This document shows positions 4,508 through 63,504 of a stretch of 64,000 nt of DNA, piece after piece. Made by a program: the position numbers and the translations under genes. The notes beneath the pieces are model-generated. The model was given only the letters and a program-made list of their open reading frames with translations, did no database searches and was not told the origin of the DNA. Each line of letters opens with the position of its first letter. Within the stretch, counting starts at the first letter, position 1. The DNA comes from Myxosarcina sp. GI1. Its GTDB lineage: Bacteria > Cyanobacteriota > Cyanobacteriia > Cyanobacteriales > Xenococcaceae. The stretch covers positions 463,006 through 527,005 of the forward strand of contig NZ_JRFE01000014.1 in the NCBI RefSeq assembly GCF_000756305.1. Reading direction: 5' to 3'.

Positions 4508-4709
4508 GACTTAAACTGCGTCTATCATCTCAGAACGCTCTGATTGGGGGTTGCGCCCCACCTCGATGATAGTTAAGCAGAGGAAGCGATAAAAACTCTG
4601 CACCTAGCCAACTTTTGATAACTACACTTTATCGTTCTTTGCCTGACAGTTCGCTCTCCTTCGGCATAAGACAATGAGTCACAGCGATATAACCCTCATC
4701 CGATAAAAC
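4508..4709. repeat. Structured direct repeat, copy 1 (about 202 bp)
   Basis: First of two nearly identical copies offset by 217 bp. Each begins GACTTAAACTGCGTC and contains nested inverted repeats: an outer TATCATC/GATGATA stem enclosing CAGAACGCTCTG and GGGGTTGCGCCCC hairpins, which together make a cloverleaf-like three-way fold. A second half carries TTGCC...GGCA-type pairing. No open frame is kept. It may be a structured RNA or a dispersed palindromic element. Confidence 0.75.
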
Positions 4710-4724
4710 TAGTTTGTATTTGTT

Positions 4725-4926
4725 GACTTAAACTGCGTCTATCATCTCAGAACGCTCTGATTGGGGGTTGCGCCCCACCTCGATGATAGTTAAGCAGAGG
4801 AAGCGATAAAAACTCTGCACCTAGCCAACTTTTGATAACTGCTCTTTATCGTTCTTTGCCTGACAGTTCGCTCTCCTTCGGCATAAGACAATGAGTCACA
4901 GCGATATAACCCTCATCCGATAAAAC
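4725..4926. repeat. Structured direct repeat, copy 2 (about 202 bp)
   Basis: Second copy of the 202-bp element, separated from copy 1 by 15 bp. The only differences noticed are in a short patch near 4840 (ACTGCTC here against ACTACAC in copy 1). The stem-loop regions are unchanged. Such high identity means the duplication is recent or is kept uniform by recombination. Confidence 0.75.
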
Positions 4927-5347: not shown

Positions 5348-5479
5348 TTTATCTCTATTTACAAACGCTACTAACATTAAAGATAATGCTCGATCGCAGA
5401 TTTCTGGCTTATTTTAAAGATTACTTTTAAGTTAGCGATCGCCAAAATACCATTTATTTCTTACAATAATTGACCGCTC

Positions 5480-7567: not shown

Positions 7568-7637
7568 GTTATAGTGCCGTCGGTTATTGAGAATTAAAAT
7601 CAATTACAATATACTAAACTTGGTTAAAATTTGCACT

Positions 7638-8195
7638 ATGGTTACAATACAACCACTAGTTTCGGAATTCACTATTACTGGCAAATTAGAAGACTTAACT
7701 ATTAGCAATGGCGATCGCGTTAAGTATCTGCAATTATCCACAGAAGCAGAAACGTACTCGATAAAAGTGGCTAAAGAAAAAAAGCGGGTTCTCAGCCAAC
7801 ATTTAAAGCCTGGCTGCTGGCTAAAAGCGATCGGAATGCGAAAGTGCAAACTAGAGCGAGAAGAATTTGAATATATAGCCTACAGAATCGAATTACTTGC
7901 AGAACCAGTTTCAGAACAACTTGCCACTCAAACTGCAGTTGCAACAGCCAAACCTAAAGCCAAAGTGCTGTTCTGTCAAAATTCTACTTGCTGGAAAAAA
8001 GGCGGAAAGGCAGTATGTGAATTATTAACTTCCGAATTACAAGCAAAAGGTATAGCAGATCGAGTTGAAATTAAAACTACTGGCTGTTTGAAGCAATGTA
8101 AACAAGCACCTAATATGGTAATTATGCCAGGAGGAATTCGCCATAGCAGAGTGCGACCGACACAAGTACCTACATTTATCGAACATTTCCTTTAG
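7638..8195 (+). CDS. (2Fe-2S) ferredoxin domain-containing protein
   Basis: The product is about 185 residues from the ATG at 7638. An N-terminal beta-rich domain (residues about 5-85, FTITGKLEDL...) is followed by a thioredoxin-like [2Fe-2S] domain. Its cysteines are seen in VLFCQNSTCWKKGG and TTGCLKQCKQAPN, the usual four-cysteine pattern. It probably carries electrons in the cytoplasm. The frame extends 17 codons further upstream to 7587, but that stretch is rich in Asn and Ile and lies in the spacer after the HyuA gene. Confidence 0.85.
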   Translation: MVTIQPLVSEFTITGKLEDLTISNGDRVKYLQLSTEAETYSIKVAKEKKRVLSQHLKPGCWLKAIGMRKCKLEREEFEYIAYRIELLAEPVSEQLATQTAVATAKPKAKVLFCQNSTCWKKGGKAVCELLTSELQAKGIADRVEIKTTGCLKQCKQAPNMVIMPGGIRHSRVRPTQVPTFIEHFL

Positions 8196-8392
8196 TTTAA
8201 ATACATAAAAAATTTCTTAAAAATGCGATCGCATTTTAGATGGTCAAATTTTGTTGCCTAAATACAAGCATCGATTCATCCTTTGGTGCGATGATAATTG
8301 GCTGTAATTAGCAGTAATTTAAAAAAAGACAGGAGTATTTAAACAGTTCGATTGGCTGTACTCAGACAATAACCATAAATGAGGAATAAATC

Positions 8393-47328: not shown

Positions 47329-47543
47329 TAAAATTTTATTGAAGTTAATTAATTAAAAACTATTAATCGCTACGCAATAGAATATATAGCTTAATACCCA
47401 AAGCTAGAAGGCAAGCAGAACTGTCGATTGCCACACTGAATGTCGTCTTGACAAATAGTTTGTCTTCTCCTGTCAATCTCTAAAAACCTCAATTAGAAAA
47501 GATTATAAGCTTTTTTATGGCGGTCAAGTGTCTAAAGTCATGG

Positions 47544-47591
47544 TTGACAAATTGATTGTCCGATCTTCAACATTTGACAAATTGATTGTCC
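47544..47591 (+). mobile_element. Candidate transposon end: two TnsB-like sites
   Basis: TTGACAAATTGATTGTCC occurs twice, at 47544-47561 and 47574-47591, with a 30-bp period. From memory, the left end of the Scytonema hofmannii type V-K element has TGACAAATT..(T)GTC-type TnsB sites, which read inward from the end. By that rule an element would extend to the right, toward the tnsB gene at 60391. No TGTACA-like terminus or target duplication was recognised. The rest of 47224-47769 carries only the purine operator and HIP1 sites. Confidence 0.5.
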
Positions 47592-47769
47592 AAATTCACA
47601 AACAGGGTAAAAATCATAAGAGGATAAGTTTAGAGTATCTCAATAATATTTGCATCGATCGCGATATTTTGTTTCAAAAGAATAGCGATCGCTCGTTGTA
47701 ACCAATAATAATCGGGAACTTGTAGCGATCGCTAGATGAAAATCAAATATTACTGATGCTCGCGTTAAA

Positions 47770-48834
47770 TTAGGCAGCGTCTAAATCTGTATTACGAGAG
47801 ATCGAGTTTCTAACTGCATCGAGATCGACAAATCGATCTGCTAAAAGCTGCAATCTATTACTGACAGAGTCTCGCGAAGCAATAACTGTTACCTCCACAT
47901 CACGTTGCTTGATTTCTTCGATGAGAGGATAAAAGTCACCGTCGCCACTGATTAAAATAAGGCGATCGCCTGGTTTGACTTCTTTTAAAATATCGATACA
48001 GATTTGGAGATCGTCACCAACGGTTTTAAAGGCACCTTCTGGACGAGGGACTCTAGGCAAACAAGTAACTCGATAATTTAGATTTCGTAAGTGAGAATGC
48101 AGTTCGATGTTTTTACTTTGGGGACAAACGCCATCATAAAAATTGAGTTTGATTTTGCCGTTGGATGGCATCAAATATGCTTTTAAAGCTCTATAGTTTA
48201 TTTTTGTGTTATGGGTAGAGCATTTAAAATTGTTGCCATCAAAGTAAGCATGAGTAGTTGGCTGTTCGTCAATTAAAATTTTGGTTATTTTTTGAGACTT
48301 AGATGAAGAATAAGATTTATTGTTTGATTTTTGCTTTTTTACATTGTCTTTTTCGAGCTTTTTTACTCGATGCTCTTGTCTATCTAACTGCGATCGCATA
48401 TTAGTTTGCTGTTTTTCTTGCGCTTTAAGCTGCTGCTTATTTTTATCGATCGCTTTGAAGTGTTTTTCTAGTTTAGTTTCAATTTGCTGCGATCGCTTGG
48501 AAAAATTTTCTATTGCTGCCGTATAGCTATCTGATGTACCGACGCGACCTTCAAGTTCTTGATATTTGTTATCAAGTTCATTTTTAGTATTCTCAAGCGA
48601 TCGCGATGTGTTGTCAATTTTTTCATATACATTGTTTTGCCAATTGGCGAACTCATTTTTTGTAGTAAAGCGATCGAGTTTTTCATCTATTGCCTGTTGT
48701 TTGACTATGCAAGTAAAAAGCAGTGTACCAATGCTCAAATCTTTCATTGATGAATTTTGAGTAACTGCACCTGAAATAAAGAATGTTCCAGCAAGGGCAA
48801 AGATAACGTTAGTAATAAATTTAGTAGTTTTCAT
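47770..48834 (-). CDS. Membrane-anchored coiled-coil NYN (PIN-like) protein
   Basis: From the ATG at 48834 the protein has about 354 residues. A hydrophobic N-terminus (MKTTKFITNVIFALAGTFFI) could be a membrane anchor, residues about 65-170 form a long coiled coil, and a basic Ser/Lys linker follows. The C-terminal NYN domain contains HAYFDGNNFKC, NFYDGVC and RLILISGDGDFYPLIEEIKQRDVEVTVIAS, with the acidic residues of a PIN-like RNase. The frame continues upstream to 48915. It lies next to the CRISPR arrays and is read away from them. Confidence 0.85.
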   Translation of the reverse strand: MKTTKFITNVIFALAGTFFISGAVTQNSSMKDLSIGTLLFTCIVKQQAIDEKLDRFTTKNEFANWQNNVYEKIDNTSRSLENTKNELDNKYQELEGRVGTSDSYTAAIENFSKRSQQIETKLEKHFKAIDKNKQQLKAQEKQQTNMRSQLDRQEHRVKKLEKDNVKKQKSNNKSYSSSKSQKITKILIDEQPTTHAYFDGNNFKCSTHNTKINYRALKAYLMPSNGKIKLNFYDGVCPQSKNIELHSHLRNLNYRVTCLPRVPRPEGAFKTVGDDLQICIDILKEVKPGDRLILISGDGDFYPLIEEIKQRDVEVTVIASRDSVSNRLQLLADRFVDLDAVRNSISRNTDLDAA

Positions 48835-49182
48835 AGTAGTTAGTGAATAGAGAATAGGGAATAGAAAAGCAATAGAGTGATATTTCGCTTTAGCTTCTTT
48901 CATTTCCTTCTGCATACAAATGTAACCGACTTGTCTTTGACAAACTACCTAATGAAAATATTCACTCTAAAAAAATATCTCTATAAAAATCCATTCTCTA
49001 CAATGCTTTGAGTTTTTGTTATACGTATTACTCAATATTTTCTTTTTTTGTTTACTTCACACAAAAAAAGCGATCGCTTTTTGAGCGGCGATCGACATCT
49101 TTAAAATAACGATGAATGGTGAACGATTAATGCGGAATTAAAGACAAAAATTCATTATTCCTAATTCATCATTGATTACTTC

Positions 49183-49300
49183 GTTTCTATTCAATTGAGT
49201 TCTCCTTAGAAGAGAAATTGCAAAGTACACCTAACAGCAATAAAAGGTTATTATGACTACTCAAGTTTCCATTCAATTAGGTTCTCCGTAGAGGAGAAAC
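49183..49300 (-). CRISPR. CRISPR array A (two repeats, reads left)
   Basis: Two 36-bp repeats (49183-49218 and 49265-49300) enclose one 46-bp spacer. They are inverted relative to array B. Read on the minus strand they begin GTTTCTCC...GGAGAACC and end TTGAATGGAAAC. The outer copy is degenerate (ends ATTTC and ATAGAAAC), which marks the distal end. The leader should thus lie to the right, in 49301-49623. Confidence 0.88.
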
Positions 49301-49623
49301 TCTTTATCCGAACAAAATAAAGAAGAAAGTTTATGTCATCTTTCTCAAGTAAAAACTTGGGGTGTCGGTAATGAGCTTACAAAACCTCCTACTTCGATAA
49401 TTGTTTGATTTTTTGATGGATTTATTTTTATTGAATGAAAAATTTGCGAGGGATAGCCAAAATCGCGGTAACTATATTAGTCTCGTTCTGAGCCTCGATA
49501 TATTACTGTATAAGGCTTTAGAGATTTTGAAAATTGGAAAATCGCTTATTACAGATTCCTGTTTTTCTGAGCCTCGCAAACCTTTTCTCGACATCAGACC
49601 AGATCTGGGTTTCAATGGAGGGA
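49301..49623. promoter_or_regulatory. Shared central region between two divergent arrays
   Basis: This 323-bp AT-rich stretch lies between arrays that read outward, so it should hold the leaders and promoters for both. TTCTGAGCCTCG occurs twice here (about 49486-49497 and 49564-49575), 78 bp apart. An 89-codon frame in the region runs into repeat 1 of array B and is not believable as a gene. The spacer to the left (48835-49182) holds only HIP1 sites and A/T runs. Confidence 0.6.
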
Positions 49624-49913
49624 GTTTCTCTTTTATAGAGAACCTAATTGAATGGAAACTTGACCGATAAAGCTATTTTTTGCCTGTACTTTTTTTAGGT
49701 AAGCATCGTTTCTCTTTTATAGAGAACCTAATTGAATGGAAACACCCTGACGTTTAGCCCAGATTGCCTGAATGGGTGAGCGCTCGGGGTCTACGAAGTT
49801 TCTCTTTTATAGAGAACCTAATTGAATGGAAACTTGATTTTGATATTGTTGTTGTTGACTCATTTTCTTTTGCCTATGTTCCTCTTTTATAGAGAGCCTA
49901 ATTGAATGGAAAC
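49624..49913 (+). CRISPR. CRISPR array B (four repeats, reads right)
   Basis: Four 36-bp repeats start at 49624, 49708, 49798 and 49878 and enclose spacers of 48, 54 and 44 bp. The first three are identical; the last has GTTCC and AGAGAGCC changes, marking the distal end. The repeat has a TCTCT-TTTAT-AGAGA hairpin near its start and ends TTGAATGGAAAC. In array A the stem is TCTCC/GGAGA, a compensatory change. Uneven, long spacers suit type I-D or III-like cyanobacterial loci. Confidence 0.93.
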
Positions 49914-50018
49914 TAAGTATTTAATGATGAATACGGAAATGATTTAAAACTCCTAATTCATCATTCATACTTTATCGTTATCAAAAATTATTATCTAATC
50001 AATTTACAGACAATAGTT

Positions 50019-50372
50019 ATGAACAATTCCTTAATGGTAATCTTTCCCTATAGATTGCATGACACCTGGGTTTTTGATGACTCGGCAGTAGGTTTACAGC
50101 AAGAACCCTTTGTTAACGGTATACCAGAAATTATCGATCTTTTAGTTGAAAACAAAAATATTGCCAATGCCGAACAAGGCTTTAAACTAATATTTTCTCA
50201 AACTCCCTTTCCTGGCTGCGACTTAGAATTAGATTGGCGGTCAGAAGAATACGGTGGCAACTGGTATTACTGCCAACAATACGATCGCGAAGGTTGGTTG
50301 TGTCCTGCTTTGTTTAAATACTTCGATCGCGCCCCGCAAAAAATTTACTGTCAGGCAGAAGCGGTTAAATAA
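50019..50372 (+). CDS. DUF6717-like protein
   Basis: The 117-residue protein begins MNNSLMVIFPYRLHDTWVFD and contains GLQQEPFVNGIPEIIDLLVE, then FPGCDLELDWRSEEYGGNWYY and EGWLCPALFKYFDRAPQKIY. This matches my memory of the DUF6717 family, small proteins of unknown function. It has no CRISPR signature. It lies between array B and cas1 on the opposite strand to cas1, so it was probably included by chance. Confidence 0.75.
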   Translation: MNNSLMVIFPYRLHDTWVFDDSAVGLQQEPFVNGIPEIIDLLVENKNIANAEQGFKLIFSQTPFPGCDLELDWRSEEYGGNWYYCQQYDREGWLCPALFKYFDRAPQKIYCQAEAVK

Positions 50373-50472
50373 ATTATGAATAAAGAACGATGAATCAGAA
50401 TTAAAAACAAAATTCATCATTCATAGTTCATATTTCATTAATAATAAAAATGTCTATTCTATTCCCTACTCC

Positions 50473-51474
50473 CTACCTAATCGAATAAGGACGATAAAGC
50501 TGCGTTGGTTGATAGACAAACTGCTTGTATAACCTCACCTGCTGCATCAAAATATGCCATCGAGGTTGATTTTCACCCAAATTGGTTTGTACTTCTTCTT
50601 CCATACGCTGAATAAAAGCTTTTAGATATTTCTTGCGTCCAGAATTGTTGAGATAGCAACCGCCATCATGATAGGTAAAGTCATCTTCAACTTTCATTAT
50701 TCTACGATTAACTAAGTACAAAACTAAAGAATCGACAATTGGGGCGCGAAACTCTTCGATTAAATCTGAAGCTAAAGCAGCGTGGCGATCGCTTGCCCGA
50801 TGCAAACAAGCCTGATAGGGATCGAGTTGCTGTAGTTCAATGATGGCTAAAAGATGATTCCACAACACCTGATAGCCAAAACTCAACATCGCATTGACGG
50901 GATTTCCAGGGGGGCGACGGCGACGGGCGACAAACACAAAATCAGAATTTGTAATAGTTTCGCCATAAGCAGAAAAATAATTAGCTGCTGCTGCACCCTC
51001 ACAACCAATAAGTCGTTCGAGACTTTCTACACGACCTGCTTTAGAAATCAGATATTCTAAGTTCAGTATAGTTTGGGCTACAGTTGCCGATTCTCGTTTT
51101 CGTTGCTGTCTTTGTAGCCAAACACGACTATTTTTATTTTTAAGCTTACCAATGACTATTTCTCTGGCTACTGCCAATCTTTCAGCAAATGATAGCTGTT
51201 GTTGATAGCGAGATAGCTGGCGGTATCCTCTGGCTAAAGGTAAAATTCGCCCGTAACAATAACCCATACGAGAGAGATAGACAATCGGAATATCTTGCCG
51301 AATACAAGCTTTAATTGCTTGTGTAGTTACTTGCGAGTTGCCAAAAACTAATATCTGTTCGATTAACGGTATCTGGATCTCCTGCAAAATATTCTGCTTG
51401 CGCTTAACTATCAAAGTCTCTTTATTTAGATAAACGTAACAGCCTTGTTGGGAAATATAGAGACTTTTCCTCAA
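50473..51474 (-). CDS. cas1: CRISPR-associated integrase Cas1
   Basis: The 333-residue protein has the N-terminal beta domain (SLYISQQGCYVYLNKETLIV, then IPIVYLSRMGYCYGRI) and the helical catalytic domain. The metal-binding residues are in place: Glu in RLIGCEGAAAANYF, His in CLHRASDRHAALASDL and Glu in IEEFRAPIVDSLV. It integrates new spacers. The TTG start overlaps the csx18 TGA (TTGA), which implies coupling. No cas2, cas6 or effector gene is in the window. Confidence 0.94.
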   Translation of the reverse strand: MRKSLYISQQGCYVYLNKETLIVKRKQNILQEIQIPLIEQILVFGNSQVTTQAIKACIRQDIPIVYLSRMGYCYGRILPLARGYRQLSRYQQQLSFAERLAVAREIVIGKLKNKNSRVWLQRQQRKRESATVAQTILNLEYLISKAGRVESLERLIGCEGAAAANYFSAYGETITNSDFVFVARRRRPPGNPVNAMLSFGYQVLWNHLLAIIELQQLDPYQACLHRASDRHAALASDLIEEFRAPIVDSLVLYLVNRRIMKVEDDFTYHDGGCYLNNSGRKKYLKAFIQRMEEEVQTNLGENQPRWHILMQQVRLYKQFVYQPTQLYRPYSIR

Positions 51475-51758
51475 TAAATTCTTTTTTGTATCTCAGAGGA
51501 ACGTTGTGTATGGCTTAAATCGTTATCAAAGTGAGGTGCAGAAAATCTATTTTGGCGTGACGGAGATATCGACAGCCAAGAGACAACCATATCGGCAAAA
51601 ACACCGACAAAAAAGCTAGCTACAGTTACAAAAAAAGTGTTGCCGACTACCGCAGCTAAACCTAAAGGTGCAATTAATAATAAAGTTAGAGTAATCGCTC
51701 CGTTGGTAATAGCAGTCGCCAAATTTCTTACTACGGCAGCACGAGTTGATATATACAT
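51471..51758 (-). CDS. csx18: Csx18-like CRISPR-associated membrane protein
   Basis: The 95-residue protein begins MYISTRAAVVRNLATAITNG and has two hydrophobic segments (about residues 18-38 and 42-65, LLIAPLGLAAVVGNTFFVTV and FFVGVFADMVVSWL), then a polar tail. This is the pattern I know as Csx18, found in cyanobacteria next to cas1. Its role is unknown. It is upstream of cas1 and overlaps it by 4 bp. Confidence 0.8.
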   Translation of the reverse strand: MYISTRAAVVRNLATAITNGAITLTLLLIAPLGLAAVVGNTFFVTVASFFVGVFADMVVSWLSISPSRQNRFSAPHFDNDLSHTQRSSEIQKRIY

Positions 51759-51982
51759 GAATAAAAGTTTTTATAGTTAAATACAGCACTAATTTAGCCA
51801 GTTTTTCAAAGCTTTTCTCGTAAATCCCGATATTTACTCAAGCAATAATTTAAAACCCAAACTTATAATTAGACTTGGTTATTGTTACTAGAGAGCCAAA
51901 TTTAACAAATATTTTCTTTCAATTGACTCAAAAAAAATCTCCTGAAGATCTAAGATCGAGGATTGAAAATTCTCTGTCCCTC

Positions 51983-52009
51983 ATTCCCCATTCCCCATTC
52001 CCCATTCCC
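51983..52009. repeat. Heptamer repeats at the WYL gene start
   Basis: Four CATTCCC-type heptamers end six bases before the ATG of the WYL regulator, in the place where a ribosome-binding site should be. Copy number changes would alter the leader. Such short tandem repeats are common in cyanobacterial spacers. Confidence 0.7.
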
Positions 52010-52014
52010 AAAAA

Positions 52015-53178
52015 ATGAACCTCTCTCCAAAAATAAACCGCTATGATAGTCCACAGTCTTTAGAAAGATTGTTACTGCTAATTACTACTTTGATTAAATA
52101 TCCTGGTATTGGTTGTGCCGACCCAGATCGTACTCTTAACGGCAAACATCACAACGCTTTAGAGTTGGTTCGAGACAAACTAAGAGAAATAGCTGCATCG
52201 CTACAAATTGAGCTACCAGATAATTATCCTGCAATACCGACTATTCGCAAAGATTTAGAATTACTTAAAGACTATGAAATTTTAGATCGTAGAATGTATC
52301 GCTGGGGTTATTACTTGGGTACGGGAGTAATGAATAAGCGAGAACTAAAAGCGGCTTTTAACGCTCTAGAGTCTCAGGCAATATATCAGGGAGATCCCGA
52401 ACTGAGGAAAATTTATCACACACTTAAGCGCAGAATGAAAGGGTTTGAGTTTGGCGATCGCCAAGACTTTTTTTATCCCGTCAGACAACACCTCAACCGC
52501 GCCATCAACTATACCGATCCTCAAGAAATGATGAAAAAGGGAAAATATCAACACACCTTATTTCATCAAATAGAAACACTCGAAAATGCCATTATCAAAG
52601 GACAGGCGATCGAGCTTTTTCGCGATCGCGATCCCTATCAGCAAGAGCAACTTGGATTTGTCTCTGTCTACCCTTTACAGCTAATTTATTACGATATTGC
52701 CTGGTATTTAATTTATGAAGACTATCGCGATTGCACTTTATCGGTAGAAAGAATCGATCGCTTTAAAGACCATCTCAAGATTATTACCTCTGAAGGTAGA
52801 AACGTTAGCGAACAAAAAACCAGTCTCGACAATGCTCACAAGCTTCTAAAAAATGGTTGGGGATTATATTTGGGCAATGCCGAGGAGCAACAACGAGAAT
52901 TACAGGGAAAACTAGATTTACTCGATTTTAAAGTACGTTTCTATCCTCCCGTAAACAGATTTATAGCGGAAGGTGAGCTACGACATCCACGACAGAGTAT
53001 AAAAAAACACAAGGAAGAATATCTAGATTATTCAGTCAAATTACCACCGCGATCGCTCAAAGAGTTCGGCATTTGGGTCAATAAATATCTCGACTGCGCT
53101 ATGGTCTTATCTCCTCCCAAACTAGTTGAAGAACATCGTAATAAGGCTTTAGCTTTAGCAAAAAGATATGGTTTTTAA
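52015..53178 (+). CDS. WYL-domain transcriptional regulator
   Basis: The 387-residue protein has an N-terminal winged-helix-like part (about residues 10-120, IPTIRKDLELLKDYEILDRRMYRWGYY) and a WYL domain (about 215-300) with PLQLIYYDIAWYLIYEDYRDC, followed by a WCX-type C-terminal region (VRFYPPVNRFIAEGELRHPRQS). WYL regulators near cas genes control CRISPR expression, often in response to nucleic-acid ligands. It is divergent from csx18-cas1. Confidence 0.88.
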   Translation: MNLSPKINRYDSPQSLERLLLLITTLIKYPGIGCADPDRTLNGKHHNALELVRDKLREIAASLQIELPDNYPAIPTIRKDLELLKDYEILDRRMYRWGYYLGTGVMNKRELKAAFNALESQAIYQGDPELRKIYHTLKRRMKGFEFGDRQDFFYPVRQHLNRAINYTDPQEMMKKGKYQHTLFHQIETLENAIIKGQAIELFRDRDPYQQEQLGFVSVYPLQLIYYDIAWYLIYEDYRDCTLSVERIDRFKDHLKIITSEGRNVSEQKTSLDNAHKLLKNGWGLYLGNAEEQQRELQGKLDLLDFKVRFYPPVNRFIAEGELRHPRQSIKKHKEEYLDYSVKLPPRSLKEFGIWVNKYLDCAMVLSPPKLVEEHRNKALALAKRYGF

Positions 53179-53229
53179 AAGGAATAGGGAAAATAGGGAA
53201 CAGGGAATGGGGAATAGAAAATAATAATC

Positions 53230-56200
53230 CTAGCAAAGTTCTACCCGCAAATTCGATCCTAGTTGTGACTTTTGAACTTTAATTTGGGTAAATTGCTCGG
53301 CTAAGGCTGGAATATGAGTAATTACACCAATTAAACGATCTTGCTGTCGCAAAGATTCTAGTGTGCGCGTAACTATATCTAATGTCTCGCGATCGAGCGT
53401 TCCAAAACCTTCGTCTAAGAAAAGACAACCAATTTCAGCACCCATCGATAATTTTTCGGATAAGGAGAGAGCCATTGACAGAGAAGCGGCAAAAGTTTCC
53501 CCTCCTGATAGAGTCCGAATTCCGCGCATTTCGCCAGCATTCCAATTATCTTCAACGCGATATTCTCCATTTTCTATTTTTAAAGCGTAACGAGAATCAG
53601 TTAAATCCTGTAAAAGCACGGTGGCACGAGTTACTAACTCTCTTTCTAAATGCTCTAGGATAAATGCCTGAAAATGGTTGGTTTGAAGATCGCGAGCTAA
53701 AGTTTGATAGATGTGTTCTTGCTGTTTGACTTGTTGCTGGCGTTCTAGCAAGTCTTGACTTTGCTGCTGTTTGGTGGCTGCATTTTTTAGCCAAATTTCT
53801 AATTCTATTTTTTGTTCTCGTGATTCTTCTAATTTTTTCTCTGCTAGTTGTTTGGCTTCGCGTCTCTTAGTTAAACTAGCTTCATCAGTAGTGCGATCGC
53901 CAATATTATCTTTAATTTCTCGAACACGGCTGGTTGCTTCAATTTTTTGCTGTGTGTAAGATGCGATCTCTTTTTGCCATTCTTGTTGTTTGGTTTCAGT
54001 TACTAGTGCTTCTTTAAAGCTAATTTCAGTGAAGCTGTTATCGGCAAGTGCAACTTGCCATTGGGTTTCTAAATGCTCTTGTTGAGATTTTGTGTGAGCA
54101 AAGTTTTCATTGGAATTATTGTATGTAGTTTCTGCTTGAGTAAAGTGATTTTGCGCTTGGTTAAATTTAGCATCCGTTTCTTGCTTTTGCATTTTCCACT
54201 GATTTTTATCTCTTTCTAGCTCATGCTTGAGACTATCGTAAGTCTTACCATTGGTAACTTGATGAAGCTTATCTTGAATTTCAACAAGTAGTTGCTGACG
54301 ATACTCTACTTCTGCATTTGCTGCATCCAATTCTTCACGAGCAGTTTCTATATTGTTCTGACAAAATTCTAAACTTTGCTCTGAACGCTCTAATTCTGCT
54401 TCAACCTTCTGTTTTTGAATCAATGCTTGCTGATAAGCTTTGTTTTGCTCTGAAAGACGTTTTTGCTCTTGTTTGAGAGCCTTGCTATCCCATACTTCGG
54501 CTTTTAAAATATCTGCGATCTGATTTTGAAACTTGGATAATTCTATTTGAGCTATTTTAAGCTCTTGCTGCAAGCTCGTTTCCTGTTTTTGTAGCGACTC
54601 TAGGCGCGTTATAATTTGAGTCAAAGTAGTTTGAGCTTGTTGGCAATTTTGACGAGTATTGTTAACGAACTTCTCTAAAGGTTTGAGTTCGATAATTTCG
54701 GCATCGGTTAAGAATGGCAGCAAATGAGCTTCGGGATATTTACCACCACAAACAGGACAGTCATCACCTGGATATAGTGCAGTGCGTAAAATAGCTGCAT
54801 GGTTTTTTCGAGCGAAGCGATCGTTGCTAGCTTTCGCCTCTTCTAAACTTAACTCAGCCTCTTGTAACTTTACCTCAATAACTTCTAATTGTTCTAATGA
54901 TGAAGTATGTTCGGACTGTAATTGTTGTTTTTCCTTAACAGTTCGATCTAGCTTTTCGCGGACTGTTTGCTCTTGACGAACAGCAGTTTCCCATTGAGGT
55001 ATCAGGGGAACTACCATATCTAAAATTTCTAAACGAGAAGTATCTGGAGATGTTTGAGCAAGAGTATTATTAACTGTCTCTAGTTTTTTTTGAGCTTTGG
55101 TTACTGTTTCTCGTACCTGTCTAACTTCAACTTCTCGCTCTTGGCACTGCTTTGTCTTTTGCTGTAGTTTATTTTGTGCTTGGCTGAATTCTATTTTGGC
55201 TTGTCCCTCTTGTTGGCTATAGGCTTCAGCAGTTGCTAAATTTTGGCTTCTTCGGTCGAATTGAGCTTCTTTTTCACTAGCAATAGCTTGAAGGCAATCG
55301 CGGTTTTCTTGCTGTGTTTTCAATTCACTCTTGGCACGAGCTAATTTGTCAGTAGCATCCTGTAAATTATCTGACGTTTTGGTAAATCGCTGCCGAATAT
55401 CTCGAACCCTATCCCAATCAGACTTAAGCCGATTTGCAGCTTGAGCTATTTTAAGTTTTTGTTTTAGCTTCTCGATTTCGGTTTCTTTGAGGTTTATCTG
55501 GGCTAAATTTTGCTGTAATTTCTCTAAGCGTCGAATTTGCTCTAATAATTTTTCTTCTTCTTCTAAAAGTTTGCCCGCGATCGCAACTTCTTCTGTCAAT
55601 TGTGGAAGGTTTTGCTCTAATGTTTCAAGCTCGGTTTGGTTGGTTGTTATTTCTGCATCTGTGGGTAATTCTAGTCCTTCAATTTTTCCATTAATCTCGG
55701 CTAGTTTTATTTGAGCATTCTTGACGCGATCGCTGGCACGTTGACGCATTTCCTCGAAAATATTGAGTCCTCCCAAGTTTCGTAAAATTTCACGGCGTTT
55801 TGCTGCGCTTCCTTTGAGAAACTCATCGAACTGTCCTTGAGGAAGTACAATTACTCGCGTAAAGGTATCGAAGTCCATACCCAGAATATCTTCTACCGAG
55901 CGATCGCAACGTTGCCACTGTCCTTGTTCGAGGTGATCGAGTAAAAAATTTGTCTTGGTTCCGCTACGACGATCTTTCCAAGAACGAGTGATTTTATACT
56001 CTGTTTGCTTAAGTTGAAATTGAAACGAAACCTTTAAGCTTTGTTCGCCTTGACTGACTAATTCTGGAATATCTGCTTTGCGTGTAACTTTACCAGGTAC
56101 TTTTTCGTAAAGAGCGTAAGTTATAGCATCGAGTAAAGAAGATTTCCCTGCTCCTGTAGCTCCAGTAATGGCAAACAGATCTAGTTCGGTAAAGTCTAAT

Positions 56201-56256
56201 TCTTGCTTAGTACGAAAACTGGTAAATCCTTCAACGGTTAGTTTAATTGGACGCAT
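53230..56256 (-). CDS. sbcC: SbcC (Rad50-like) exonuclease subunit
   Basis: The 1,008-residue ATPase has Walker A in ITGATGAGKSSLLDAITYALYE, two long coiled coils (about 170-470 and 520-830), the zinc hook CPVCGGKYPEAHL at about 500, the ABC signature RTLSGGETFAASLSMALSLSE and Walker B in CLFLDEGFGTLD. It works with SbcD on DNA ends and hairpins. It overlaps sbcD by 14 bp and is last in the nurA-herA-sbcD-sbcC run. Confidence 0.95.
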   Translation of the reverse strand: MRPIKLTVEGFTSFRTKQELDFTELDLFAITGATGAGKSSLLDAITYALYEKVPGKVTRKADIPELVSQGEQSLKVSFQFQLKQTEYKITRSWKDRRSGTKTNFLLDHLEQGQWQRCDRSVEDILGMDFDTFTRVIVLPQGQFDEFLKGSAAKRREILRNLGGLNIFEEMRQRASDRVKNAQIKLAEINGKIEGLELPTDAEITTNQTELETLEQNLPQLTEEVAIAGKLLEEEEKLLEQIRRLEKLQQNLAQINLKETEIEKLKQKLKIAQAANRLKSDWDRVRDIRQRFTKTSDNLQDATDKLARAKSELKTQQENRDCLQAIASEKEAQFDRRSQNLATAEAYSQQEGQAKIEFSQAQNKLQQKTKQCQEREVEVRQVRETVTKAQKKLETVNNTLAQTSPDTSRLEILDMVVPLIPQWETAVRQEQTVREKLDRTVKEKQQLQSEHTSSLEQLEVIEVKLQEAELSLEEAKASNDRFARKNHAAILRTALYPGDDCPVCGGKYPEAHLLPFLTDAEIIELKPLEKFVNNTRQNCQQAQTTLTQIITRLESLQKQETSLQQELKIAQIELSKFQNQIADILKAEVWDSKALKQEQKRLSEQNKAYQQALIQKQKVEAELERSEQSLEFCQNNIETAREELDAANAEVEYRQQLLVEIQDKLHQVTNGKTYDSLKHELERDKNQWKMQKQETDAKFNQAQNHFTQAETTYNNSNENFAHTKSQQEHLETQWQVALADNSFTEISFKEALVTETKQQEWQKEIASYTQQKIEATSRVREIKDNIGDRTTDEASLTKRREAKQLAEKKLEESREQKIELEIWLKNAATKQQQSQDLLERQQQVKQQEHIYQTLARDLQTNHFQAFILEHLERELVTRATVLLQDLTDSRYALKIENGEYRVEDNWNAGEMRGIRTLSGGETFAASLSMALSLSEKLSMGAEIGCLFLDEGFGTLDRETLDIVTRTLESLRQQDRLIGVITHIPALAEQFTQIKVQKSQLGSNLRVELC

Positions 56257-57413
56257 CGCTTAACTCCTGATACAAATCATTAAATGCCCGTTTTACAGCA
56301 GGTTCGAGATTTTTTGCCGACTGCTCTTGGTAATAGCGAGCGAATTCTTCGGTGGGATTGAAAGTCTGATAATCGATTGATTCGGTTTGTCTTTCTACTG
56401 CCGTTTTGGTGTATTTCGGTTGAATAATTAAGGTTTGAGGACAAATTCGGCGCACGCGATCGCCTAACCCCATTTGCTGGGTTTCCATTTCGACAATAAC
56501 TTTGAGATAGCCAGGATGTTGCCGATGCGCTGTCAAGATTTCATCTAAATTATTTTCGTTACAGTACAAAACTTTTAGAGGTTTATGGCAGGGAATTACT
56601 TTAAATTCGACTTTGGCAGGGCGATTGGGTTCGACGGTAACTAAATTAAAACCTTTTTCTTCTTCTGCTTCACCAAAATCGACCTGAATGAGCGAACCCG
56701 AATAGTAAGTGGGAGCGGCATTAGGAATTTGTTGCGGTTTGTGGATATGCCCTAAAGCTACATACTGAGCGACTGAAGGAATCGACCCTTCGGAAAGACT
56801 GTAAGCACCTTTCGTGTAGAAATCGACTTCTGAATGGGAAAGTTTGGCACTCTGTACGGTTAAATGCGCCATTATTACATTGACGCAGTTTTCTTCAAAG
56901 CTTTGAACTAATTGCTCGAATAGGTAACTAACAACTTTTTTGTAGTTTTGCTGTTGTTGTGAATCGCTTTTTTCCCAAAGTTCTTCAGCTTTGAGCAAAC
57001 GACGCTCTGAAGCAAAGGGCATAGCAGCTACACAAAGTCTCCCGTTACGAGTATCTAGCTTAATAACCCCTCCCTGACTAGCTTTGCAAGGTCTTCCTAA
57101 AGCGCGAACTCCAACATGAGCCACAAGTTTAGCTATACCATCGATGCGGTTGGCAGAGTCATGATTACCTGCAATAACTACGGCAGGAATGTTGGCTTCT
57201 TTATAGTTGACAAAAAAAGTTGTAAGCAACCTGTTCGGCATCGGCGGTTGGGCTGGGAGTTTCAAAAATATCTCCTGCAACTAAAACCGCATCGACTTCT
57301 AAATCTTTTGCTTGTTCTAATAATTGGTCAAGTGCAAATTTTATTTCAGGAGTGCGATCGACTCCTCTAAGTTTTCTGCCTAAATGCCAGTCGGAAGTAT
57401 GAATGAGACGCAT
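56243..57413 (-). pseudogene. sbcD: SbcD (Mre11-like) nuclease, frameshifted
   Basis: Two overlapping frames make one SbcD of about 389 residues. The first has IHTSDWHLGRKLRG and VLVAGDIFETPSPTADAEQV; the second continues IPAVVIAGNHDSANRI, MAHLTVQSAKLSHSEV and VALGHIHKPQQIP, so all metal-binding motifs are encoded. The break is at a run of seven A on the plus strand (57212-57218). With six the frame reads YNFFVNYKEANIPAV without a gap. It is either a sequencing error, a recent mutation or a slippage site. Confidence 0.9.
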
Positions 57414-57440
57414 AAAAAATTGTTAATAGCAAAAATGTAA

Positions 57441-59183
57441 TTAAAAACGATCGAGGTCAGCTTCTATTTCGGCAATTTCTGCTTGAGAAAGACTGACTTC
57501 ACTTTGACGAGTCGCATAAGCAGGAAAAGGAAAATTCACTAATAACGGTGCGGGAACTTCAGGCTGATGAATAAACATACTTCCCGACTTTAATAAAAGC
57601 GATCGCTTGCGACAGGCTTCCGTAAGAAAGTTATACTCTGGTCTTTCTGCCTCAGCAGAATCTAATCTGCCAACGACGCGAATTGAAGCTTGTCCGACAA
57701 CTCTTCGTTCTACCTCTGAAGCCGTTTGCTGTGCGCCAACCAGAATGATTCCCAAAGAACGTCCTCGTTCGGCAATTTCTACCAACAAATTTTTAATCGG
57801 ACTGCGTCCTTCACGGGGAGCATATTTATTGAGTTCATCTAAGACGATAAAGACAATAGGGTCTTGTCCTCGTTTTTCTTTCTCGGTAAAAAGCTTTTGC
57901 AACAGTATGCTAACGACAAACTTTTGGGCTTTTCCGCCTAGTTTGTTGATGTCTACGACTGAAAGTTGATATGCTGCATCGAGAGGATCGAGTCGGCAAT
58001 CTGCCATGTCTTTGGGCGATAAATCTCCCCGAATTAAATGACTCATTTCGCTTTTGATTCCCCAAAGCCGACGAATTAAAGCTTCAGCCGTAGCACCTGC
58101 ATTGCGTCCGAGCCAACTTCTGTCCTCGACTTCCAATAACTTGTACTCTAGAAAATCAATTAGATCGCTAAAAGTTTCAATATTTAGCTTGTTGTTATTT
58201 CCATAAGCTTCATCAGCAACTAAATTAGTCCCTGATTCGCGATTGTTTTTTCGATCCTCTTTATCATTATCCAGTGCTAATTTAGCTAGTTTTTCGGTAA
58301 CTCCAGCCACTAAAAATCCTAAATTTCCTCTTTCTAAATCCTCACCTGCAAACAAAAAACTAAACAGGCGATCGCGGCATAATTCTCGTAGACTCCAAAG
58401 ATAAACTTTAATATCGTCTTGTCTTCGATCCAAATGAGGTGAAAGATCGGGAGAAAATTTACGCGGTGCGGCACAGAAACGAGCATCCTTAAAAGGTTCT
58501 ATAGGAATCCCTAAAGTCTGATAATCATTACGAGCCTCATCTTTCAGACAGCTATTTGCTTTATCTAGAAAAAATAAATCCTCTCCTTTAACGTTAAAAA
58601 TTAAGGCTTTAGTATTGGCTTTACGATTGCCTAAAGCCGCAGAATTAAAAATAGCATGAAGTAAAAAAAGTGCGTACGAAGTTTTGGTAGCTACACCAGA
58701 AACGCCTGAAATATTTATATGTGCGCCTTTTTCGCCGTTAATAAACTCGAAATTTAAATAGGCAGGTCGTCCATTTCGCATCAATCCAGCAGGAATTGGT
58801 TTTTCCATGCCATCGAAATACAAAGCTTTCTTCAAGTCTTCGTTTTCAGCTAAATATACCGTATCTCCTGGTTGTGGCGGTAGATATTCTTCTGGTTCGA
58901 TACGAGTTACTCGAACGTGAGCGGCATAAGAAATATTTACGGGTAAGCGTCCTTGAGTAACTAAAAACGTATCGGTATCAAACTGCGTACCTTCATAAAG
59001 AGTGCGAACATAATCCACTACTCCATAAAAATGAATAATTTTATTTGGCTCGCCAGGACGATAAGTTTGTAGTTCGATCGCGTCATCAAGTCTGAGTACG
59101 CGATTGGGAATAACAGCAACCCAAAATTCTAAAGGGGTTGATTCTTGAGTACCGAGAACGTATCCGACAGATGTTTTAGTCAT
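57441..59183 (-). CDS. herA: HerA-like ATPase/helicase
   Basis: The 580-residue protein has an N-terminal HAS barrel (TSVGYVLGTQESTPLEFWVA) and a FtsK/HerA motor. The P-loop region reads ISGVSGVATKTSYALFLL, in which Thr-Lys-Thr replaces the usual Gly-Lys-Ser/Thr, a form I recall from cyanobacterial homologues. Walker B is FIVLDELNKYAP, and IILVGAQQTASEVERRVVGQ follows. HerA pumps DNA ends into NurA during end resection. It is 21 bp from nurA and 27 bp from sbcD. Confidence 0.88.
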   Translation of the reverse strand: MTKTSVGYVLGTQESTPLEFWVAVIPNRVLRLDDAIELQTYRPGEPNKIIHFYGVVDYVRTLYEGTQFDTDTFLVTQGRLPVNISYAAHVRVTRIEPEEYLPPQPGDTVYLAENEDLKKALYFDGMEKPIPAGLMRNGRPAYLNFEFINGEKGAHINISGVSGVATKTSYALFLLHAIFNSAALGNRKANTKALIFNVKGEDLFFLDKANSCLKDEARNDYQTLGIPIEPFKDARFCAAPRKFSPDLSPHLDRRQDDIKVYLWSLRELCRDRLFSFLFAGEDLERGNLGFLVAGVTEKLAKLALDNDKEDRKNNRESGTNLVADEAYGNNNKLNIETFSDLIDFLEYKLLEVEDRSWLGRNAGATAEALIRRLWGIKSEMSHLIRGDLSPKDMADCRLDPLDAAYQLSVVDINKLGGKAQKFVVSILLQKLFTEKEKRGQDPIVFIVLDELNKYAPREGRSPIKNLLVEIAERGRSLGIILVGAQQTASEVERRVVGQASIRVVGRLDSAEAERPEYNFLTEACRKRSLLLKSGSMFIHQPEVPAPLLVNFPFPAYATRQSEVSLSQAEIAEIEADLDRF

Positions 59184-59204
59184 AGAAAAATCGATAATAG
59201 TAAA

Positions 59205-60218
59205 TTAATCAATCAAAAAATTACGTAGGCGACGCTCGATCGTTTTGCGATCGCCCATATATCTGCCTAATTGCTTTTCCAATCCCGATACTGGAGTAAG
59301 GTTTTGGGGAGCGCGAGGATCGCGAACGGGATGGGAAGCATATTGAGGAATGAGTACGGTACTAAGATTGGCGATCTCTATAGCTTTTTCTATGGGAACT
59401 TCACTATACAAATCCAGACGAACAATGCCATGTAAATCGTGATAGCCAAGTTTTTTGGGAACGATATTTTGTTCTCCAGAACGCAAGTACCAACTCCAAT
59501 GGGATTTAAACTTTTCTGGTTTGCCTACTGCAAAAATAGGTGTACGTTCGCCTAGCCCTAAATGCCAAAGTATTGATGCTGCATCTTCTGTAAGATATTG
59601 CCGACCCATCGTTTTGACATAACCGAGCGTTAACCCAGGAGATTTATAAGAGCCATACAACAAAGGTCCATCGCGAATAACTAGTATGTCAGGATGATTA
59701 TATTTTTCGGCTAATCTTGCTTCAGCTTTTAGCATTGCTTTTTGTATTGAAGAAAGAGCAGCTTGAGGACTATTTTCGGTGCAGTTCAAACAAAGATCGT
59801 AGGTAAGAGTTGCCTGACTGCCAAAAGGACAAGGAATATGAGTAACGGGAGAAGTTAGATCTCCACAAAGCGCGATCGCTCGCTGTACAATAGGTTCAAC
59901 ACAGGTAGCGCGGCAAGCGAGGCGATCGACTGCTACTGCACCTACAGCTAAAGTAGCAAAAGCACCATAGAGAACTTCGTTGTCTTTGCGTCCCAAAAAT
60001 CGAGAATCCAGACGAAGGCGACCGTCGATGAAGAGAATTTTGTCTGGTATTTTTGCAAATTTATCTAACTAAATGGCTGTCCATTCATGGGTTTCTACGG
60101 TGAGATCGATCCGTTCGGGCTGTGTACATTCTAGATTAGTCAGATTAATCGGACTGTCATATTCGGTCGCCCAAGGTTCTACACGAATTCGATAATTACT
60201 CCAGAAATTTTCAGACAT
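59205..60218 (-). pseudogene. nurA: NurA nuclease with an in-frame stop codon
   Basis: The full frame from ATG 60218 would give 337 residues. It starts MSENFWSNYRIRVEPWATEY and reads HEWTAI before a TAG at 60069-60071 (codon 50), then LDKFAKIPDKILFIDGRLRL. The Asp of FIDGR (codon 65) is the expected first metal ligand. A restart at TTG 59996 would lose it, while the rest (VRLDLYSEVPI, IPQYASHPVRDPRAPQN) is intact. Without read-through the nuclease should be inactive. Confidence 0.85.
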
Positions 60219-60330
60219 TAATCTTCAAATACTAGCTCTGTTGAATATTTTGAAGCCGCAAGTGATATCTACTAACTAATTACCTTAACTTTTGCTTAAC
60301 TCAAAATAACAGCGAAAGATTACGCAAATC

Positions 60331-60405
60331 TGTTGACAATAGCTATCGTCTATAAAATAATAACATAATGTTTTTATTTAACAATTTAAGTTGACGAACG
60401 ACAAA
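60331..60405 (+). mobile_element. Candidate left end next to tnsB
   Basis: TGTTGACAATAGCTATCGTC begins at 60331, and TAACAATTTAAGTTGAC (60379-60395) and GACGAACGACAA follow up to the start of tnsB. The first part is a near palindrome, GAC.ATAGCTAT.GTC. This is where left ends of V-K elements normally lie, but the sites fit the TnsB motif less well than those at 47.54 kb. It might also be an operator of the transposition genes. Confidence 0.35.
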
Positions 60406-62105
60406 AATAGCGATCGCTATATAATTCCAACAGAGTTTGATGAAGAAATTAAGCGCAAAATGGAAATCATTGAGAGCTTGATGGAACCCTGTAATCGCAA
60501 GACTTACAGCAAGAAACTCAAAAAAGCAGCAAAGAAGCTTGGTAAATCCAAAAAAACAGTACAAAGACTAGTCCAAAGATGGAAAGAGGAGGGAATAGCA
60601 GGATTAAAAACTGGCGAAAGAAATGATAAAGGTCAACACCGCATATCTCAAGAGTGGCAGGACTTTATCTTTAATACCTTTCGGGAAGGAAATAAAGGTA
60701 GTAGAAAAATGTCTCGCAAGCAAGTAGCGGTGAGAGTTAAAAATAAGGCACAAGAATTAGGTGTAAAAAAATACCCGAATTGCCGAACTGTATATCGCGT
60801 ATTGCAACCCTTAATCGAAGCTCGAGAATCCAAACCCAAGATTCGTTCTGTAGGCTGGCGAGGCTCTAGTCTATCAGTCAAAACTCGCGACGGAAACTAC
60901 ATTGGTGTGGAATACAGCAATCACGTTTGGCAGTGCGACCATACAAAGGTGGATATTCTGCTGGTCGATAAATTTGGAGATTTGGTGGATCGCCCTTGGC
61001 TAACTACTGTTATAGATACTTATTCGCGTTGTATTATTGGCATTCGTTTGGGTTTTGATGCACCTAGTTCTCCAGTAGTAGCTTTGGCTTTGCGTCATGC
61101 GATATTGCCTAAAAATTATAGTCCTGAATATGGTCTTAATTGTGAGTGGGGAACTTATGGAAAGCCAGAATACTTTTTTACAGATGGAGGTAAAGATTTT
61201 CGTTCCAATCATTTGAGGCAGATTGGAGTTCAGTTAGGCTTTACTTGCGAACTGAGAAATCGCCCTTCAGAAGGCGGTATCGTAGAGCGTCCTTTTGGAA
61301 CCTTTAATACTGAATTGTTTTCTACTCTTCCTGGCTATACAGGTTCCAATGTCCAAGAACGTCCCAAAGAAGCCGAAAAAGATGCCTGTCTGACTCTAAG
61401 AGAATTAGAAAAATTATTCGTTCGCTATATCGTCGATAACTACAATCAAAGAATCGACGCTAGATTGGGCGACCAAACTCGATATCAACGTTGGGAAGCA
61501 GGATTATTATCTACTCCTCATTTGATGAGCGATCGCGAATTGGATATTTGTCTGATGAAGCAATCAACTCCGTTGATTCGACGTTGCTCCGCAACGGCGG
61601 ATTGCCAAAGGCAATCAATCGTTCTATCTATCGAGATGGCTATATTCGCTTCGAGAATTTAATTTACAAAGGCGAAAATTTAGCTGGTTATGCTGGAGAG
61701 CAAATAGCTTTACGTTACGATCCCAGCGATATTACTCAAGTTCTAGTTTATCGAAGAGAGCAGGGAAAAGATATCTTTCTAGCTAGAGCTTTTGCTCAAG
61801 ATTTAGAAACTGAAACACTATCCCTAGAAGATATTAAAGCTACTAACAAAAAAATTCGCGACAAAGGTAAATCCATAAGCAATCACTCGATTTTGGAAGA
61901 AGTTAAAGAGCGAGATCTTTTTGTTGCCAAGAAAACAACCAAAAAAGAGAAACGCAAGCAAGAGCAATTTGAGTTCGATGAAGGCAAAGTTTCAACTCGG
62001 GTAATTGAAACAGAATCAGAGATTGAAGAAACAACCACGTACGTAGAACCAGAACCAGTGGAAATTTTGGATTACGAAGACGCAATGGACGAATTTGGAT
62101 GGTAA
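60391..62105 (+). pseudogene. tnsB: TnsB transposase of a type V-K CAST, interrupted
   Basis: The two frames together cover a TnsB of about 570 residues, close to that of the S. hofmannii CAST. The first (TTG start, to about 61566) has the HTH KKLGKSKKTVQRLVQRWKEEG and the complete DDE core: VWQCDHTKVDILLVD, FFTDGGKDFRSNHL and RPSEGGIVERPF. The second resumes at 61620 with RSIYRDGYIRFENLIYKGEN and keeps the C-terminal barrel and tail. A 53-bp sequence stands where one codon is expected, shifting the frame. The transposase should be inactive unless rescued. Confidence 0.9.
61567..61619 (+). repeat. 53-bp palindromic insertion inside tnsB
   Basis: The inserted stretch contains two hairpins, CGTTGC-TCC-GCAACG and GATTGCC-AAA-GGCAATC. 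GCAATCAA occurs at both edges (61560-61567 and 61611-61618), like a target duplication. Neither reading frame through it encodes residues known from TnsB; homologues read MKQSRR here. It is similar in style to other palindromes in the window. Confidence 0.8.
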
Positions 62106-62107
62106 CT

Positions 62108-63007
62108 ATGGCTAAATCTAATGAAGATCGAGACGATTACAAAGAAGAAAATAGTCGGTATAAAAACTCAAGTGACAAAGATCAAGCTCAAGAATATGCG
62201 GATGATTTGGGAAAAATAGAACTCCCAAACGAGTCTATCCAAAAAGAAATCGCTCGACTGAGATGTAAAAATATTGTTCTACTGCAACAGGTTGAACATT
62301 TACATAATTGGTTGGAAGGAAAAAGAAAATCCCGTCAGTCTTGTCGTATTGTGGGGGAATCTCGTACTGGTAAAACTATCGCTTGTGAGTCATACAAATT
62401 GAGACACAAGCCAAAACAAGAAACAGGAAAACCGCCAATTGTCCCTGTAATCAATATTCAACCCCCTCAAGAATGTGGTTCGAGAGATTTGTTTGCTCTA
62501 ATTATTGAACATTTAAAGTACAAGGTTGTCAAAGGAACAGTCGGAGAAATTAGAAATAGAACTCTAAAAGTTTTGGAAAGATGCCAGGTTGAAATGCTAA
62601 TTATTGACGAAGCAGACCGCCTAAGACCAAAAACTTTTGCTGATGTTAGAGACATTTTCGATAATTTAGGGATTTCTGTAGTTTTAGTGGGAACAGATCG
62701 TTTGGACGCAGTAGTGAAGCGAGACGAACAAGTTCACAATCGTTTTCGAGCTTGTCATCGCTTTGGCAAATTATCTGGGGTTGAATTTCAAAAGACAGTA
62801 ACTCTTTGGGAAAGGAACGTTTTGAAACTTCCTGTAGCCTCGAACCTGAGTAGTAAAGCTATGCTCAAAGTTTTAGCACCAGCAACTGGGGGTTATATTG
62901 GTTTGCTAGATATGATTCTGCGAGAGTCTGCTGTTAGAGCTTTAGAAAAAGGTTTGAAGAAAATCGATCTAGCAACTTTGAAAGAGGTAGCGGGAGAGTA
63001 TAAGTAA
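62108..63007 (+). CDS. tnsC: TnsC AAA+ regulator of a type V-K CAST
   Basis: The protein of about 299 residues resembles the CAST TnsC along its length. It has a charged N-terminus, then LLQQVEHLHNWLEGKRKSRQ, Walker A GESRTGKT, Walker B EMLIIDEADRLRPKTFADVR and the sensor VVLVGTDRLDAVVKRDEQV. TnsC forms filaments on DNA and couples TniQ/Cas12k target choice to TnsB. The ATG at 62108 follows the tnsB stop by 2 bp; an ATG at 62099 overlaps it. It is intact. Confidence 0.94.
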   Translation: MAKSNEDRDDYKEENSRYKNSSDKDQAQEYADDLGKIELPNESIQKEIARLRCKNIVLLQQVEHLHNWLEGKRKSRQSCRIVGESRTGKTIACESYKLRHKPKQETGKPPIVPVINIQPPQECGSRDLFALIIEHLKYKVVKGTVGEIRNRTLKVLERCQVEMLIIDEADRLRPKTFADVRDIFDNLGISVVLVGTDRLDAVVKRDEQVHNRFRACHRFGKLSGVEFQKTVTLWERNVLKLPVASNLSSKAMLKVLAPATGGYIGLLDMILRESAVRALEKGLKKIDLATLKEVAGEYK

Positions 63008-63504
63008 TGGCAGAACTTCAGTCTTGGCTGTTTCAATTGGAACCTTATGAGGGAGAAAGTCTCAGCCATTTTTTGGGTAGATTTCGACGAGAGAATAATT
63101 TTACTACTTCTGTTTTAGGTCAAGAAGCAGGAATTGGTGCAGTAATTTCACGCTGGGAAAGACTTTATCACAATCCTTTTCCACCCCAGGAAGATTTAAA
63201 AGCACTAGCTAAAGTTGTTAAAGTAGACGTTAATCGCTTGAGAAAGATGCTACCACCAAAAGGTATTGGTATGAAGCATCAGCCAATTCGCCTCTGTGCA
63301 GCTTGTTATGTTGAATCACCTTGTCATCGCATTGAATGGCAGTTTAAGCAGACAGACAGATGTGAGAAACATCAGCTTAGGTTGTTATCGGAGTGTCCTA
63401 ATTGTAAAGCTAAATTTTCTATTCCTGCTTTATGGGCAAATGGCTGGTGCAGCAGGTGTTTTTTGACTTTTGCTGAAATGGTGCAGTATCAAAAATCTGT
63501 TTAA
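63007..63504 (+). CDS. tniQ: TniQ target-selection protein of a type V-K CAST
   Basis: The 165-residue protein is the short TniQ form of V-K elements (about 167 residues in S. hofmannii). WLFQLEPYEGESLSHFLGRFRREN is the N-terminal signature, ISRWERLYHNPFPP follows, and two zinc fingers are seen (CAACYVESPCH, then CEKHQ, CPNC and CSRC). It bridges Cas12k and TnsC. Its first base is the last base of the tnsC stop, so the genes are coupled. It is intact. Confidence 0.94.
   Translation: MAELQSWLFQLEPYEGESLSHFLGRFRRENNFTTSVLGQEAGIGAVISRWERLYHNPFPPQEDLKALAKVVKVDVNRLRKMLPPKGIGMKHQPIRLCAACYVESPCHRIEWQFKQTDRCEKHQLRLLSECPNCKAKFSIPALWANGWCSRCFLTFAEMVQYQKSV

Follow-up and report, generated by a model that had tools for sequence, protein, structure and literature searches.

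Two exact copies of the 18-base motif TTGACAAATTGATTGTCC, at 47544-47561 (+) and 47574-47591 (+) of the window (the whole 64,000-nucleotide stretch of Myxosarcina sp. GI1 DNA that was analysed, G000:C14:463006-527005; coordinates from 64001 onwards denote the contig beyond it, with the numbering continued), very probably form part of the authentic end on the tnsB side (the right end) of one type V-K CAST of 27,462 bp, in which about 12.7 kb of DNA has been inserted between TnsB sites 4 and 5. Both ends of this element, the spacing of their sites, the homing spacer with its protospacer and the position of the split are direct observations. The features of the element are collected in Table 1.

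Table 1. Features of the type V-K element and of the DNA enclosed by its ends (coordinates of the window)
Feature	Position	Strand	Remarks
5-bp flank AGAAC	47417..47421		Outside the tnsB-side end
tnsB-side end, terminus TGTCGATTGCCACA and predicted TnsB sites 1-4	47422..47591	+	Order and spacing as in G441, G432, G428 and others
Predicted TnsB site 1 (TTGCCACACTGAATGTC)	47428..47444	+
Predicted TnsB site 2 (TTGACAAATAGTTTGTC)	47448..47464	+
Predicted TnsB site 3 (first twin site)	47544..47560	+
Predicted TnsB site 4 (second twin site)	47574..47590	+	Exactly 30 bp past site 3, as in relatives
Spacer remnant between sites 4 and 5, junction region	47592..47620	+	Alignment to G432 and G428 fading
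Inserted DNA (extra cargo), about 12.7 kb	47617..60325		Between site 4 and site 5
NYN-domain protein, 381 aa	47770..48915	-	PF01936
Two small convergent CRISPR arrays	49183..49913		Repeat end GAACCTAATTGAATGGAAAC; repeat nowhere else in the genome
DUF6717 protein	50019..50372	+
cas1	50473..51474	-
csx18	51471..51758	-
CARF/WYL-type regulator	52015..53178	+
sbcC-like ATPase	53230..56256	-
sbcD-like nuclease	56243..57280	-
herA-like helicase	57441..59183	-
nurA-like gene	59205..59996	-	Named from its place within a conserved operon of four genes; the gene itself matched no family
Predicted degenerate TnsB site 5 and tnsB promoter region	60326..60390	+	Homologous to the region upstream of G014 tnsB
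tnsB, V-K type, two frames	60391..62105	+	Interrupted by about 50 bp of inserted DNA
tnsC, V-K type	62099..63007	+
tniQ, V-K type	63007..63504	+
cas12k	71951-73906		Beyond the window; in-frame TAG at 72632

The Twin Motif Forms Part of a Complete TnsB-side End

The two exact copies are accompanied by a third one with 3 mismatches at 47448. In shuffles with up to 3 mismatches allowed, 0.12 matches were expected per window, and three matches were reached in none of 100. The twin copies are the sole exact matches in the 7.07-Mb genome. A pair of sites spaced exactly 30 bp and preceded, about 96 bp upstream, by a third is found at this one place in the 123 kb of C14, and Markov simulations of 64 kb produced it in 0 of 30 runs; the genome's second CAST has the pattern too, confined to the tnsB-side end of that element. 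A scan of the 123 kb for TGACA-N7-TGTC returned these three sites and one inverted site at 74821, and nothing more.

The regions upstream of V-K tnsB genes were scanned for end sites in relatives, where site 1 lies seven bases inside the terminus, site 2 follows twenty bases later, sites 3 and 4 are exactly 30 bp apart and site 5 comes 45-58 bp further on, followed by tnsB. The offsets of sites 1 to 4 in our element (0/20/116/146, with the sites placed at 47429, 47449, 47545 and 47575 in this comparison) agree exactly with those of G046 at sites 1, 3 and 4 and differ by no more than one base from those of G441, and a multiple alignment with G441, G432 and G428 is ungapped from the TGTCG terminus through site 4. 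By this comparison the twin motifs are confirmed as the third and fourth predicted TnsB sites in a tnsB-side end that is complete and starts at 47422. Single palindromic look-alikes of the motif do occur elsewhere in the genome (C26:361490), as would be expected if the motifs were due to chance or were ordinary regulatory repeats with no tie to transposition, but this explanation is scarcely credible, given that about 190 bp match the TnsB ends of relatives in both spacing and sequence and that an inverted partner end is present.

The Partner End Lies beside a tRNA-Asn Gene

The terminus at 47422 (+) recurs at 74883 (-), as the same 14 bases in inverted orientation, outside the window (G000:C14:537888). 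This partner end extends down to 74820, contains three TnsB sites and aligns equally well with G441 and G432; the size of the element given above follows from the two inverted termini. A tRNA-Asn gene (74907-74978) adjoins the far end, and just inside this end a homing spacer of 17 nt, AATCGATTGGTTGTAGG (74788-74804), stands next to a truncated repeat ending in TTTGAAAG. The spacer matches the tRNA-Asn gene at 16 of 17 positions with a GTT PAM, and 55-60 nt separate this PAM from the insertion point. The same layout was described in a survey of 118 CASTs, where the anchor spacer has 17 nt, the PAM is GTN and the distance is 46-82 nt (PMC9938897). Since the published convention takes the tRNA side as the left end and the tnsB side as the right end (PMC9938897, PMC11406308), what an earlier note on this DNA had called the left end is the right end of the element.

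The earlier note, made from the sequence of the window, had also proposed to look for the matching end and for a 5-bp target duplication. The matching end is the one at 74883. As to the duplication, the flanks AGAAC outside the tnsB-side end and AGGAC at the far end (G000:C14:537889-537893) are identical at four of five positions. An identity of 4 or 5 of 5 has a chance probability of about 1.6%; this weak match says little in either case, because the reference elements C24, G441 and G432 have no duplication.

The tnsB-side end is flanked by purine genes at 40.7-47.2 kb. In the family comparison, which covered 27 genomes, all outside the genus of the query, G007 and other relatives keep the order AAT-rimM-r161-tRNA-Asn without this element, and the purine genes are not adjacent there. 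G008 was considered as an empty site and set aside, because its amidohydrolase gene adjoins rimM in a different relative orientation. The tRNA-Asn gene beside r161 is a hotspot for CASTs in the family, with assorted CAST-like ends directly after it in about half of the genomes (L122-L147). As a separate feature, the window contains a near-perfect 217-bp tandem duplication at 4508-4926.

The End Is Split between Sites 4 and 5

Among the 30 nearest TnsB loci, the end is found directly upstream of tnsB in 28 (one of them, L195, was read by eye in a locus that is cut short), and only this element and its G014 sister depart from that arrangement. In this element, the terminus and the start of the tnsB ORF are separated by 12,969 bp and about ten genes, in agreement with the 12.8 kb or so of the earlier note. 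Also as that note had it, the sites just upstream of tnsB are poorer, consisting of a single degenerate one (TTGACAATAGCTATCGTC, 60333). The alignment to relatives fades where site 5 is due, near 47617, and homology with the region upstream of G014 tnsB starts at 60326; that region, which reads AAATCTATTGACAAAATTTTTGTCCGCTAAAATAATAACAATATG in G014 and AAATCTGTTGACAATAGCTATCGTCTATAAAATAATAACATAATG in this element, corresponds to site 5 and the promoter. If the two sides of the split are rejoined, site 5 falls about 44 bp after site 4, as compared with 46-48 bp in the nearest relatives (hand count). The 5-bp sequence AAATC is present at both inner junctions and may be there by chance; apart from it and common HIP1-type octamers, the inner junctions showed no clean ends or repeats of an inserted element. 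A smaller displacement was observed at L109 (G212:C3), where about 1 kb of unrelated DNA separates tnsB from the end upstream of it; the G212 genome has two identical-scoring copies of this tnsB.

In a TnsB tree of 51 rows, this element pairs with G014 (100/99), and the enclosing clade (100/99) adds G441, G465, G428 and G432, all of them with TGTCG termini. The labels for end type, that of the query included, require 3 changes on this tree, as compared with 14.3 when shuffled. The end at 47422 is thus of the type expected for this TnsB, which argues against a random relic. Taken with the inverted partner beside tRNA-Asn and its homing spacer, and with the finding of no other tnsB-side end between 47.6 kb and tnsB, this result favors the first of the two possibilities raised in the earlier note, the true end of a large CAST, over the second, an end left behind by an older, lost insertion, for which neither a partner with an identical terminus nor a fit to the resident TnsB would be expected.

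The CAST fragment of G014 (C279) has the closest TnsB (82%) and the same site 5 and promoter as this element. Sites 1-4 are absent from the 4.6 kb between its tnsB and the contig end. It differs in the genes upstream of tnsB, which encode EAD8-trypsin and VMAP-C proteins, and its contig stops short of any outer end. The CAST of G432 (C6:2898577-2914361; TnsB 73%, TnsC 71% and HsdR 75% identical) shares the end type, the MerR regulator, cas12k and the adjacency to a tRNA gene (tRNA-Lys), but it is compact (15.8 kb), with five sites directly upstream of tnsB and without the 12.7-kb insert. From such a compact arrangement the present one can be derived, as judged from the sequences, by one insertion. 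The highest-scoring matches to the TnsB model (L084-L088) were set aside, as they are about 46% identical and have no such end motif near tnsB, and all plasmid TnsB matches were below 60% identity.

The preferred explanation starts from the compact end of the relatives, in which TnsB sites 1-5 stand together immediately ahead of tnsB. Foreign DNA of about 12.7 kb would have entered between sites 4 and 5 in this lineage, leaving sites 1-4 at the outer boundary, while site 5 and the tnsB promoter would have stayed beside tnsB. TnsB would then bind sites 1-4 and the three far-end sites, which implies that sites 1-4 suffice for transposition, and would move as cargo everything that they enclose; the choice of tRNA-Asn would fall to Cas12k and the 17-nt homing spacer.

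A composite origin, from two tandem CASTs or from a solo relic, is the main alternative, possible but improbable. The end at 47422 would then come from an older, closely related CAST at tRNA-Asn that lost its core genes, the present CAST would have lost its sites 1-4, and the DNA between them would be leftover cargo or host DNA. That tRNA-Asn is a hotspot speaks for such a history, which is conceivable because tandem V-K CASTs with different TnsB types lie side by side in G428 (L242 and L247, on C50) and G536 (L246, on C35). However, it requires at least two precise deletions, one of them ending exactly at site 5; the 47.6-60.3 kb region contains neither a CAST gene relic nor a TnsB site with one mismatch or fewer; both termini carry TGTCGATTGCCACA and fit the TnsB clade; and the sister element has the same split point at tnsB.

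The Inserted DNA Consists of Accessory Modules

Judged by gene content and distribution, the insert is an assembly of separable accessory modules. The cas1, csx18 and WYL genes resemble the adaptation half of a type III-B-like locus. Plasmid pNOS7524.01 of Nostoc sp. PCC 7524 likewise has a divergent WYL gene and csx18-cas1, with cas1 65% identical, and differs in having cas2 and the type III-B effector gene cas10, neither of which was found in the insert. No cas2 lies next to cas1 (50373-50473), so the adaptation module looks incomplete; for the type III-B cas10 and effectors, the ORF list and the family searches yielded only cas1 and csx18.

The nurA-herA-sbcD-sbcC block is colinear with G049:C300 at 76% nucleotide identity, and the match ends at 60238, short of the tnsB promoter region. 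G049:C300 is an 8.7-kb contig without a CAST, in which the resection operon lies beside a tRNA-Pro-like gene (read by eye). HerA was found in just 12 of the 388 genomes of the order, so we regard the block as accessory; elsewhere in the family, it was found only in G004, as a 34% match. None of nine other loci has cas1 beside nurA/herA.

The NYN gene, the CRISPR arrays, cas1-csx18, the WYL regulator and the resection operon are thus all enclosed by the two ends, as the earlier note had supposed for the case of a true end, in which they would be cargo; movement of the segment together with the element and its route of entry are both inferred. The 12.7 kb may instead have been acquired in situ, when the CAST was already in place at tRNA-Asn; it would then lie inside the element and would never have been cargo. 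This variant, which shares the anatomy of the preferred explanation and differs from it only in history, deserves serious consideration, although we hold it to be the less likely course. The core genes are interrupted, so the insert may have come into a copy that was already dead; moreover, the nurA operon occurs elsewhere on a contig without a CAST. Against it, sites 1-4 are likewise absent near tnsB in the sister element of G014, which belongs to another genus, and this suggests that the split predates this locus. It is conceivable, though less likely than not, that the V-K CAST lineage of this genome and G014 inherited a second cargo bay between sites 4 and 5, which each element may have filled with different defence-type genes.

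The Core Genes of This Copy Are Interrupted

PADLOC V-K models matched tnsB, tnsC and tniQ in this order (E 7.5e-182, 3.6e-99 and 3.3e-75). The insertion of about 50 bp that splits tnsB (61560-61618) is bounded by GCAATCAA at 61560 and 61611, and the examined C14 and C24 stretches contain no second exact copy of it. Beyond the window, Cas12k profiles matched two ORFs with one in-frame stop between them (E 2.9e-171 and 3.6e-77). With these interruptions in both tnsB and cas12k, the copy has probably lost its activity and mobility.

The V-K CRISPR lies between two diverged tracrRNA-like copies (73951-74150 and 74528-74730), recognized by homology to G441 and G009; Rfam models gave no match to them. 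The doubling is older than this element, since G009:C61 shows the same. Type I restriction genes are located beyond the window, between tniQ and cas12k. In L013, a 940-aa ORF (5479-8301, -) joins a MerR regulator to a type I restriction HsdR, with the MerR part at the CvkR position beside cas12k; G432 has two separate neighbouring ORFs instead. This genome also contains a second V-K CAST (C24:90415-122076; L015-L017), which lies beside tRNA-Ala and has a canonical architecture, with a TGTAC-type end that precedes tnsB by about 260 bp and with helicase and methylase genes as cargo.

Implications and Comparison with Known CASTs

Surveys that assume an end beside tnsB would cut this element in half and miss its cargo. 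The separation of the end-forming sites 1-4 from site 5, which stays at the tnsB promoter, provides a natural test of which sites transposition needs and which may have a regulatory role. The enclosure of cas1 and CRISPR arrays within the boundaries of a V-K CAST bears on the source of new spacers and, if the cargo-bay reading is true, an RNA-guided transposon would ship parts for spacer acquisition that V-K CASTs otherwise lack. Benler et al. (PMC8649781) described one Tn7 transposon of an I-B-like kind in which cas1-cas4 and cas2 accompany an array, so adaptation genes have been seen before in a transposon of this sort; our literature search found no V-K precedent for a CRISPR adaptation gene inside the transposon.

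In most respects the element resembles the type V-K, Tn7-like CASTs ShCAST, AcCAST and AnCAST, with which it has in common the TnsB-TnsC-TniQ order, Cas12k, and the tracrRNA and CRISPR copies. Type V-K CASTs likewise have a truncated repeat with a 17-nt spacer that matches a tRNA gene with a GTN PAM, TGT termini with arrays of TnsB sites, a MerR-type regulator beside cas12k, and restriction genes between tniQ and cas12k. In the type V-K CASTs described previously, tnsB-tnsC-tniQ are always the first genes beside the tnsB-side end (PMC9938897), whereas in this element that end is split and 12.7 kb of cargo precedes tnsB.
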